Assembly: GCA_017502065.1 (NCBI GenBank)
Contig: JAFVVU010000190.1
Span: 1-11,835, forward strand
Length of the DNA: 11,835 nt
Source of the DNA: Clostridia bacterium
Lineage (GTDB): Bacteria > Bacillota > Clostridia > RUG12999
Direction of reading: 5' to 3'
The notes below the pieces were generated by a model that saw nothing but the letters and a program-made list of their open reading frames with translations, made no database searches and had not been told where the DNA came from. This document shows, one piece after another, positions 6,235 to 8,815 of the stretch. Each line of letters opens with the position of its first letter. The first letter of the stretch is position 1. The position numbers and the translations under genes are program-made.

Positions 6235-7265
6235 TGAGTGAAGCTTATAAACTTGCAGGTGTTGACGTTGAAGCCGGCTACGAAGCCGTTAGACTTATGA
6301 AAGAACACGTTAAAAGAACATTCATCCCCGGCGTGCTTACAGATATCGGCGGATTCGGCGGCTCTTTCGAACTTCCGGAAGGATATAAAAAACCGGTTCT
6401 CGTTTCGGGAACAGACGGTGTTGGCACAAAACTGCGCATTGCATTTTTAACAGATAAACACGATACAGTAGGTCAGGACTGTGTTGCAATGTGCGTTAAC
6501 GATATAATCTGCTGTGGTGCAAAACCGCTCTTTTTCCTGGATTATATCGCAGTTGGACATAACTATCCGGAAAAGGTTGCAACAATCGTTAAAGGTGTTG
6601 CCGACGGATGTGAAAAAGCCGGATGCGCACTTGTTGGCGGCGAAACTGCTGAAATGCCCGGATTTTATGATCCCGAAGAATACGATATTGCAGGCTTTGC
6701 AGTAGGTATCGTTGAAAAAGATAAAATGATTGACGGCAGCAAAGTAAAAGCAGGGGACAAGCTTGTTGGTATTGCATCCTCAGGCGTTCATTCCAATGGA
6801 TTTTCTCTTGTAAGAAAGCTGTTCAACCTCAATAATGAGGGTGCTGCAACACGCCTTAATGAAGCTCCTGCATCACTTGGATGCACAGTTGGCGAGGCGC
6901 TTATCGCTCCAACAAAAATTTATGTGAAACCCGTTCTCGGACTTCTTGAAAAATTTGAAATAAACGCAATTTCTCATATCACAGGCGGCGGCTTCTATGA
7001 AAATATTCCGCGTATGCTTCCTGAAGGAACAAAAGCGGTTATCAACAAAGGTTCATGGGACATCCTGCCGATTTACGATATCATGAAAGAAATGGGCGGC
7101 ATCACCGAAAAAGATATGTATAACACATTCAACATGGGTATCGGTATGATTATGGCGGTTCGTCCGGAAATTGCCGAGGATGTTGTTAAAGAGCTTGAAG
7201 CATACGGCGAAAAAGCATACATAATCGGTGAAGTGGCTGAAGGCAACGGAGAAGTTGAAATATGA
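6234..7265 (+). CDS. purM: Phosphoribosylformylglycinamidine cyclo-ligase (AIR synthetase), PurM
   Basis: PurM closes the imidazole ring, converting FGAM and ATP to AIR. The 343 residues match the family length. The typical N-terminus [11 protein letters not shown] (5-15) is followed by the ATP-site motif [10 protein letters not shown] (58-67), then GGETAEMPG and HITGGG further on. It is translated from an ATG that shares its A with the purF stop; GGAAGG at 6219-6224 inside the end of purF is the ribosome binding site. It overlaps purN by 4 bases (ATGA), so PurF, PurM and PurN are probably translationally coupled. Confidence 0.97.
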
Positions 7266-7846
7266 AAAAAATAGGAGTTCTTGTTTCAGGCGGCGGCACT
7301 AATCTTCAGGCGCTAATTGATGCCGAAAAATCGGGCATCATAAAAAGCGGCAAAATTGTTACCGTTGTTTCAAATAAAGAGGGCGTTTATGCGCTCCAGC
7401 GTGCAAAAAATGCCGGAATTGAATCAGCGGTTATAACAAGAAAAGAACATGGCGCGGCTCTTTGCGATAAAATACTTGAATATCTTAAAGAAAAGCAGGT
7501 TGATGTGGTTGTTCTTGCAGGATTTCTTGCAATCCTTGAAGGAAAACTTCTTGAAGAATATAAGGACAGAATAATTAATATTCACCCGTCACTTATTCCG
7601 TCATTCTGCGGCGACGGATTTTACGGCCTTAAAGTGCACGAAGCGGCACTTGAAAAAGGCGTAAAGGTAACCGGCGCAACAGTACATTTTGTAAATGAAA
7701 TTACAGACGGCGGTAAAATAATAATGCAAAAAGCAGTGTATATTGAAGACGGCGACACCCCCGAAATATTGCAGAAACGTGTAATGGAGCAGGCGGAATG
7801 GGAAATTCTTCCCCTTGCAGTTGAAAAGGTTTGCTCCGAGCTTTGA
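7262..7846 (+). CDS. purN: Phosphoribosylglycinamide formyltransferase, PurN
   Basis: PurN transfers a formyl group from 10-formyltetrahydrofolate to GAR, giving FGAR. The 194-residue protein has the N-terminal [10 protein letters not shown] loop (9-18) for the phosphoribosyl substrate. It also carries the catalytic triad of the family: Asn106 and His108 in [11 protein letters not shown], numbered as in E. coli, and Asp149 in ITDGG, the equivalent of E. coli Asp144. Its start overlaps the purM stop by 4 bases. Its stop codon lies only 17 bases before the inverted-repeat element that splits the operon. Confidence 0.97.
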
Positions 7847-7862
7847 TATACCCCGAAATCTA

Positions 7863-7889
7863 AAGCCGAGTGGAGTAGACCCCCACAAG
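7863..7889 (+). repeat. Left terminal inverted repeat
   Basis: These 27 bases match the reverse complement of 8053-8079 at 25 positions; they differ at 7871 and 7886. The shared core is GGAGTAGACCCCCA. The repeat is GC-rich at its outer part, in contrast to the AT-rich interior. Confidence 0.9.
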
Positions 7890-8078
7890 GTTTAAAACCA
7901 AAAATTTTGCGTAATACTGCAGAAAATTCTGCAAATATACGCGAGTATTATTTTTGAATTTTCTTTGTCTTCCATCAAAATTTAAGGGGTTTAAACTCTT
8001 CGACCTTAAATGGGCGACAAATTACAAGGATGAAAATTTAACAAATTTAAGGCTTATGGGGGTCTACTCCCCTCGGCT
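7864..8078. mobile_element. MITE-like non-coding element inserted between purN and the IMP cyclohydrolase gene
   Basis: The 215-bp segment is bounded by long inverted repeats and has TAA at both outer edges (7861-7863 and 8079-8081), consistent with a 3-bp target duplication; a 2-bp TA duplication cannot be excluded. No open frame of useful length lies inside. The interior contains hairpins and repeated AAATTTAAGG blocks (7978-7987 and 8043-8052, inverted as CCTTAAAT at 8004-8011). Removing the element would leave an intergenic gap of about 40 bases, normal for this operon, which supports a recent insertion. No terminator-type T-tract follows the right repeat, so read-through is expected. The alternative is a structured intercistronic RNA rather than a transposed element. 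Confidence 0.75.
7912..7950. repeat. Internal nested hairpin of the element
   Basis: TAATAC (7912-7917) pairs with GTATTA (7945-7950). Within it, TGCAGAA (7918-7924) pairs with TTCTGCA (7927-7933). Such subterminal structure is common in MITEs and would also fold in the operon transcript. Confidence 0.65.
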
Positions 8079-8079
8079 T
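8053..8079 (-). repeat. Right terminal inverted repeat
   Basis: This is the reverse-complement partner of 7863-7889 with two mismatches. In the purine operon mRNA the two repeats could form a stem of about 27 bp enclosing the whole element, ending just before the ribosome binding site at 8086-8091. Confidence 0.9.
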
Positions 8080-8101
8080 AATATGAAAGGACGTAAGGTC
8101 A

Positions 8102-8815
8102 ATGATAAAACTTAATTTAGCAAACGAACTTAAAAATAATGCATACCCCGGCAGAGGTATTGTAATCGGAAGAACAGCGGACGGTAAAAAAGCAGTTACT
8201 GCTTATTTCATCATGGGCAGAAGCGAAAACAGCCGTAACCGTGTGTTTGTAGAAGACGGATGCGGCATCAGAACACAGGCTTTTGATGAATCAAAGCTTG
8301 TTGACCCAAGCCTTATCATTTATGCTCCGGTTCGTGTACTCGGAAATAAAACAATCGTAACAAACGGCGACCAGACCGATACAATTTATGACCTTATGAA
8401 CCAGCAGCTTACATTTGAACAGGCTCTTCGCACACGCGAATTTGAACCTGATGCACCTAACTATACACCGAGAATTTCGGGTATTCTTAAAATTGATAAC
8501 GGCGGCTACAGCTATGCAATGTCAATTTTAAAAAGTGCGGACGGCAACCCTGAAACATGTAACAGATACACATTCTCATACAAAGCACCGGTAGCGGGCG
8601 AAGGCAGATTTATCCATACTTATATGGGCGACGGAAACCCCCTCCCGAGCTTTGAAGGCGAACCGAAACGTGTTGAAATTTCCGGAAATATCGACGAATT
8701 TACAGATATGCTCTGGACAAACCTCAACGAAGAAAATAAAGTTTCTCTGTTCGTAAGATATATCGATATCGAAACCGGAGAAACCGAAACAAGAATAGTA
8801 AACAAAAATAAATAA
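8102..8815 (+). CDS. purO: IMP cyclohydrolase, archaeal PurO type
   Basis: The enzyme closes FAICAR to IMP, the last step of the pathway. The 237-residue protein resembles archaeal PurO (IMP_cyclohyd family), not the MGS-fold cyclohydrolase domain of bacterial PurH. Shared stretches are YPGRGIVIGRT (15-25), AYFIMGRSENSRNR (34-47), TNGDQTD (87-93, compare TNGSHTD in archaeal PurO) and NYTPRI (120-125). It is longer than archaeal PurO (about 200 residues), mainly at the C-terminus. AAAGGA (8086-8091) lies 10 bases before the ATG, immediately outside the inserted element. The next gene supplies its substrate: together the two replace bifunctional PurH. Confidence 0.9.
   Translation: MIKLNLANELKNNAYPGRGIVIGRTADGKKAVTAYFIMGRSENSRNRVFVEDGCGIRTQAFDESKLVDPSLIIYAPVRVLGNKTIVTNGDQTDTIYDLMNQQLTFEQALRTREFEPDAPNYTPRISGILKIDNGGYSYAMSILKSADGNPETCNRYTFSYKAPVAGEGRFIHTYMGDGNPLPSFEGEPKRVEISGNIDEFTDMLWTNLNEENKVSLFVRYIDIETGETETRIVNKNK

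Follow-up and report, generated by a model that had tools for sequence, protein, structure and literature searches.

The purN-purO junction and its insert

The window, that is, the whole stretch of 11,835 nucleotides of a Clostridia bacterium that was analysed, carries genes for purine synthesis in the order purE-purF-purM-purN, an insert, purO (IMP cyclohydrolase), AICAR transformylase and purD. The Pfam search around the insert confirms purM, purN, the IMP cyclohydrolase, the AICAR transformylase and purD; purE is what we take the first gene to be from its sequence. The insert is a non-coding piece of 221 bp between purN and purO, and its removal leaves 34 nt between the purN stop at 7846 and the purO start at 8102, in agreement with the preliminary description, in which the collapse was said to restore a normal gap of about 40 bases. 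The presumed ribosome site of purO, placed by eye at about 8086-8091, lies just outside the element. The features around the insert are as follows.

7262..7846, + strand: purN (Formyl_trans_N), the upstream gene
7861..8081, + strand: the whole element, an internal-deletion copy of 221 bp; the + strand is the strand with RNA-level selection on the 3' half of its relatives
7863..7890, + strand: 5' arm of the terminal inverted repeat, with a variable outer part and a more conserved inner part (around CGAAC in relatives)
7891..7989, + strand: interior 5' half, with the hairpins GCAGAAAATTCTGC and ATACG..AGTATT
7990..8053, + strand: remnant of the conserved RNA domain, matched in part by covariance model R1 (45.9 bits)
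8009..8013, + strand: deletion junction, between CTTAAA and GGGCGACAAATT
8052..8079, + strand: 3' arm of the terminal inverted repeat, with an arm-to-arm match better than in the copy C319 (by eye)
8102..8815, + strand: purO, IMP cyclohydrolase, the downstream gene

The two ends are inverted with respect to each other, with 25 of the 27 bases of 7863-7889 identical to the reverse complement of 8053-8079, exactly as had been described; with the extension by one base the match is 25 of 28, and the wider arms of 39 nt (7858-7896 and 8046-8084, 85% complementary) are the longest of the three inverted pairs in 7700-8300. The 13-mer GAGTAGACCCCCA is present in the window solely as the inverted pair in the arms, and two matches to it at no more than two mismatches were given by 0 of 200 shuffles. 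As RNA, the 221-nt insert has a predicted fold of −86.3 kcal/mol (z = −10), which 0 of 200 shuffles equalled. The interior 5' half holds one strand of a helix, the partner of which is the TTTAAAC preceding CTCTTCGACC. The TAA that was said to flank the insert on both sides is indeed present at both edges (7861-7863 and 8079-8081), but it overlaps the arms, and a duplication longer than TA is not supported.

The 29 full-length relatives of the insert are 276-281 nt long with terminal inverted repeats of about 28 nt, and the window copy is without about 60 nt of this full-length form (CGCAGG...GGAGGACGAAG..GGCTGACGCC..GA). The copies C319 and L025, which represent one locus in two species, have by eye nearly the same deletion junction as the window copy, which represents a second locus, and L034, L041 and L083 have other deletions in that same region. 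The junction common to two loci suggests that the deleted form can still move, with repeated deletion being a possible alternative. The copy in the window is a broken one: its arms are intact and its RNA core is cut. Other unusual forms were also seen. Two relatives are very short, one (L210:1031-1081, on G142:C18) being a hairpin of about 50 bp made of the two arms, and one (L209:983-1103, on G142:C3) a version of about 120 bp. In G001, one copy (C10:~1860-1931; L063, L048) is interrupted by about 76 nt of another dispersed repeat, which recurs as partial matches at no fewer than about nine other places in G001, including a tandem pair on C14; in the same genome two copies that are 87% identical (C9:~13014-13281 and C4:114850-115113) appear to represent a divergent form of the element, the arms of which are quite unlike the usual ones.

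Dispersed copies and the sites they occupy

Further copies, the search for which had been suggested in the preliminary description, are present both in the window's own MAG (74% complete, 321 contigs) and in relatives. In the own MAG there are 14 blast matches on eight contigs, that on C11 being a 35-nt end only, and the copies on C153, C260 and C203 lie at contig ends, as is expected of a repeat. By blastn, 10 of 99 genomes were matched with the own genome included, the matches in G039, G045 and G067 being shorter than 40 nt. With an exact 20-base pattern of the core, 34 stretches were found in named genomes, 31 of which are elements by inspection (L067, L068 and L082 were left out of the counts as chance pattern matches); the records of these 31 are labelled Clostridia or Oscillospiraceae, with a ruminant host in 17 of the 31 titles. 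A phage or plasmid origin was rejected, with 0 blastn matches in the phage and plasmid collections, and one 20-base pattern had 0 exact matches in viral contigs. Protein coding was rejected as well: the frame via CTC TTC GAC is open in some copies, the near-identical L080 is frameshifted against L071 and L075, and the variability of that frame by codon position is weak (0.113/0.137/0.175), with no conserved frame.

A close purN occurs in five relatives. It is adjoined by purO in G003 of the same family and in G009 of another family, both without the element; purO was not seen in the stretch fetched for the remaining three, and G001, the sole genome of the same genus, gave no purN match. An occurrence restricted to this one junction and common to all relatives, which had been held to indicate a conserved RNA of the locus, was looked for and did not appear. 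A locus-specific conserved RNA was rejected on account of the dispersed copies together with the junctions without the element, and the feature in the window is a mobile element.

Sites without the element, which had also been called for, are available at purN-purO of G003 and G009, and a few more are provided by comparison with G001. The sites of C183 and C260 are filled in the own MAG and empty in G001, the site of C183 aligning uncleanly and that of C260, the copy of which is at a contig end, being comparable on the left flank alone. In the other direction, a 5' fragment, that is, a truncated copy, is present at G001 C5:87714 and its site is empty in the own MAG; at the C153 site 13 nt of the 5' arm remain in G001. 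In two of these comparisons, both partial, the filled and empty sites are compatible with a TA target. TA is found at mirrored positions of the ends in 41 of the 51 relatives with both ends aligned; since TA is its own reverse complement, the mirrored TA neither shows a target duplication longer than TA nor proves one of TA. Ten pairs of similar copies were aligned: in five the alignment spans 278-283 bp and stops at the element ends, with unrelated flanks beyond, and in the other five, where it lacks a sharp stop at both ends, it covers 321 bp (into a similar flank), 516 bp (within a larger repeat) and, in three cases, 208-226 bp only. The MITE-like reading given before is upheld by the dispersed copies, the junctions without the element and the near-identical copies in unrelated flanks.

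The orientation of the copies was counted in 55 unique two-ended elements with a flank of 320 nt on each side (the alignment holds 63 elements). Between co-directed genes there are 26 sense versus 6 antisense copies (32 of the 55; p = 0.0005), and the remaining 23 have other or no called neighbours. In 18 of 77 cases the TA of the left end is part of the stop codon that closes an upstream open frame of at least 80 codons, against 4 of 77 for the mirrored arrangement. The symmetric ends alone do not explain the orientation bias, which may come from selection against antisense copies or from an insertion bias.

A transposase with matching ends, proposed before as a thing to look for, was not recognised by eye in the clusters of ORFs that recur next to 91 loci, which overlap in part, nor in ten stretches fetched around solitary or odd ends in G142 and G094, where the arm pattern at no more than three mismatches has 20 and 24 matches, respectively. 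Among 15 carriers, DDE_3 (IS630) is found in none, which does not fit a MITE mobilised by IS630/Tc1-mariner; the reverse transcriptase RVT_1 is found in four, none being the many-copy G094 or G142, which does not fit a retroelement; the Y1 transposase (REPIN/RAYT) is found in seven, some with short matches only; DDE_Tnp_1 is found in one; and the IS110 Transposase_20 is found in one, which does not fit an element using an IS110 bridge RNA. Each of the five mobility families is absent from at least eight of the 15 carriers and thus is not common to the carriers; in seven genomes without model matches the counts are three for reverse transcriptase, one for DDE_Tnp_1 and zero for Transposase_20. 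MAG assemblies often lose repeated IS genes, and a missing transposase is therefore weak evidence.

The RNA domain and the terminal arms

The 3' half of the element, in the form of a covariance model of 122 positions (R1), matches in 50 of the 391 genomes sampled from the class, in 27 of 318 high-quality genomes and in 32 of 222 genera, where at most nine candidates per genome were scored, so that the copy numbers are lower bounds. In a phylum-wide draw R1 was found in 4 of 398 genomes, three of them belonging to the class of the window (the own genome is one of the three) and the fourth, G413, to another class. In each of the elements of G413, G097 and G145 the two arms agree at 19-21 of 24 positions. 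With 68 distinct sequences on R1, 97% of the cells are paired and two-sided changes occur in 23 of 27 pairs, the two-sided compensatory cells of the 3' half numbering 230 versus 49 in shuffles.

A constraint on RNA was separated from one on DNA by the counts of G-U, which RNA permits, and of A-C, the mirror transition, which it does not. For the 3' half the ratio G-U:A-C is 95:12 in 68 rows (67 distinct, the antisense row of L181 being left out), 58:10 in the 30 rows with the lowest scores, all from outside the training alignment (47:9 in unique local contexts), 115:9 with the alignment-predicted structure and 143:32 with a second scoring scheme, it being noted that an alignment by a covariance model is fitted to the structure and the G-U counts lean towards it. 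At the level of these alignments, the counts show that the 3' half is a predicted RNA fold that is conserved under RNA-level selection on one strand. The alternatives set against each other in the preliminary description, a mobile element or a conserved RNA, are therefore not exclusive: the element is mobile, as was claimed, and it also has an RNA fold with compensatory changes. The interior 5' half is mixed, with ratios of 14:6, 18:7 and 7:9.

One interior helix of the 5' half (columns 54-61 with 115-121 of the 63-element alignment) has a ratio of 2:22, the reverse of the 3' half, which argues against simple sense-RNA selection in that helix and could reflect selection on the other strand, an alignment error or shared descent. 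In Rfam 15, with 20 loci searched at the gathering score, no match lies on an element, the tRNA and T-box matches lying outside the elements only, and the Rfam matches of the window copy and of one long copy are weak and far below threshold. A description of the family was absent among the matches listed from the open-licence PMC literature, a scope to which subscription papers mostly do not belong.

The outer arms differ widely between elements and yet match within an element, with a mean of 88% over 26 nt, and they covary strongly, with 165 two-sided cells versus 49 shuffled. This covariation would be expected if the arms were an RNA stem kept by compensatory RNA mutation rather than inverted repeats at the DNA level; this reading is disfavoured and we regard it as quite unlikely, the arms having no excess of G-U, unlike the interior 3' half. 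The ratio G-U:A-C is 45:52 in 63 distinct elements (outer 21:17, inner 24:35, the border between the two being approximate) and 71:88 over the whole helix. These 63 are from 76 extracted elements, after dropping those with arms matched at fewer than 18 of 24 positions, which include truncated or deleted copies such as that of the window, and those with a repeated arm pair. With no G-U preference in the arms, their match is kept at the DNA level.

The arms also change faster than the cores. In 13 independent pairs of similar copies 85 of 624 arm positions (13.6%) and 108 of 2932 core positions (3.7%) are changed, and mirrored positions are changed in both arms 25 times versus 8.9 expected under independent change. 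In 23 pairs with both ends aligned the changes are 171/1104 in arms versus 196/5187 in cores, and in an earlier set of 33 overlapping pairs, which included the odd L053 and extrapolated ends, they are 258/1584 versus 311/7442. The joint change of the arms could arise from arm-to-arm copying or from co-evolution with an enzyme that binds the ends. By eye, the arms of the window copy match better than those of C319, looking as if one had been copied from the other. The inner part of the arm (around CGAAC), which is more conserved, is the probable protein site. An RNA under selection together with outer ends that are more variable than the core is unusual for a MITE.

Two observations concern single ends. 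In L074:1559-1860 (G001 C15:33560), a snap-back copy of the end (TCTCCTCGGCTTCAGCCGAGGAGA) directly follows the 3' end, as hairpin copying would yield. The 5' flank of L077 terminates, by eye, in the mirror image of the unusual 5' arm of L053 (AAGCAGTTGCGTCAGTATC; SIG433), which suggests a remnant of another element directly abutting. An origin of the ends from tRNA, considered for the resemblance of the 3' arm to a T arm, was rejected: with six arms compared with 25 tRNAs of G001 the best agreement is 15-16 of 24, and the shuffles average 13-14 with maxima of 15-17 of 24.

Nature of the element and its relation to known systems

Our verdict is that the element represents a new, widespread, RNA-carrying MITE-like family. 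As the best explanation as a whole, we consider it probable that the window holds a copy, with part of its interior lost, of a non-autonomous insertion element of Clostridia that is flanked by TA. In the proposed mechanism, a putative enzyme acting in trans would recognise the conserved inner repeat and insert the element at TA. The outer arms would be kept alike via arm-to-arm copying, by a hairpin or template switch, or via co-evolution of the enzyme and the ends. The RNA would be read from the host operon and be kept for helping the element to persist or move. A stronger form of this proposal, in which a mobile unit free of protein has an RNA that takes part in moving it and is used in trans by a putative enzyme, and in which the outer ends are rewritten together during movement, one being copied from the other, we regard as unlikely. 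The window copy, with its RNA core cut, would most likely act only as a long stem, if transcribed, between purN and purO. Such a stem of 28 bp is a candidate RNase III site, plausible by its likeness to the reported Correia elements, and it could uncouple the parts of the operon; an effect on the last three pur genes, as suggested before, is what we infer from this.

The label MITE-like fits in structure and in dispersion: the element is shorter than 500 bp, non-coding and with terminal inverted repeats (276-281 nt, arms of about 28 nt), and it occurs in multiple dispersed copies with sites that are without it; the mirrored TA is at most a candidate target duplication, and no IS with the same ends was recognised in G142, in G094 or beside the 91 loci, where assemblies may have lost IS copies, hence MITE-like. 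It could be an ordinary MITE, the ends of which are used by the transposase of a lost or unassembled IS while the interior is a passive relic, with the RNA constraint reflecting common descent. The size, the terminal inverted repeats, the A+T-rich interior and the intergenic place all fit the published description of MITEs, and the loss of IS copies from MAGs makes the missing transposase weak evidence against it. It is, however, difficult to reconcile with the ratio of 58:10 outside the training set and the two-sided changes in 23 of 27 pairs, with outer repeats that are less conserved than the core, which is the reverse of a passive MITE with kept ends, and with the absence of DDE_3 (IS630) from all 15 carriers, and we consider it somewhat unlikely.

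An RNA of benefit to the host, of a riboswitch-like or RNase III signal kind, that regulates or is processed in cis and has spread by duplication and recombination would account for the sense bias of 26:6, for the frequent place directly behind a stop codon and for the conserved fold. It would be at odds with the near-identical copies at unrelated loci, the junctions of relatives without the element and the patchy occurrence (50 of 391), as well as with the lack of a recognised recurrent function in the neighbour genes and of an Rfam match at the gathering score; we give it little chance. An RNA-guided element of the IS110 or TnpB kind, with its RNA pairing with its own ends, is a weak candidate and highly improbable: it shares with the present element that it is mobile with a conserved RNA, but guide pairing was rejected, since across 54 elements the interior has no contiguous complement to its own arms beyond that with the arms of other elements, and Transposase_20, IS110 alone being tested, occurs in one of 15 carriers.

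Among known systems, the Correia/NEMIS and ERIC elements belong to other phyla and are shorter. Like them, the element has terminal inverted repeats and lies in intergenic regions that would be transcribed; in the passages of PMC10969869 and PMC2229807 bearing on them, RNase III (Correia) or RNase E (ERIC) can affect the mRNA and the orientation of ERIC matters, and the descriptions there, which were compared as descriptions rather than as sequences, contain no conserved RNA core. Prokaryotic MITEs, as described in the relevant part of PMC10969869, are shorter than 500 bp, A+T-rich and intergenic, with terminal inverted repeats of 4-30 bp, no ORF and a stable stem-loop if transcribed. The element resembles this description in size, repeats, A+T richness, intergenic place, lack of an ORF and stem-loop, and it differs from it in outer repeats more variable than the core, in the compensatory RNA of the 3' half and in that no related IS was found. 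With the pneumococcal BOX and RUP (as far as the relevant part of PMC3049150 goes) it shares the occurrence in Firmicutes, the dispersion and a predicted RNA fold. It was proposed there that an IS acting in trans recognises the ends of BOX, and BOX is modular (boxA-B-C), whereas the element is one fixed unit of about 280 nt with strongly varying ends and no IS found. The IS110 bridge-RNA and IscB (HEARO) elements, in the parts of PMC11208160, PMC11208158 and PMC9755519 that bear on them, are likewise mobile with a conserved structured RNA; unlike them, the element has no protein gene seen, has long terminal inverted repeats, has an interior RNA that is not complementary to the ends and has no Rfam match in the scanned loci.

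A folded RNA common to dispersed copies in many clostridial families would be both a new RNA family and a new mobile element. An RNA under selection together with fast, jointly changing ends does not agree with the usual view, in which MITEs are passive relics whose ends are conserved, and it raises the concrete question of which enzyme moves the element and whether the RNA is needed for it. With many copies lying between the genes of operons, the element may be a source of altered gene expression in gut bacteria.
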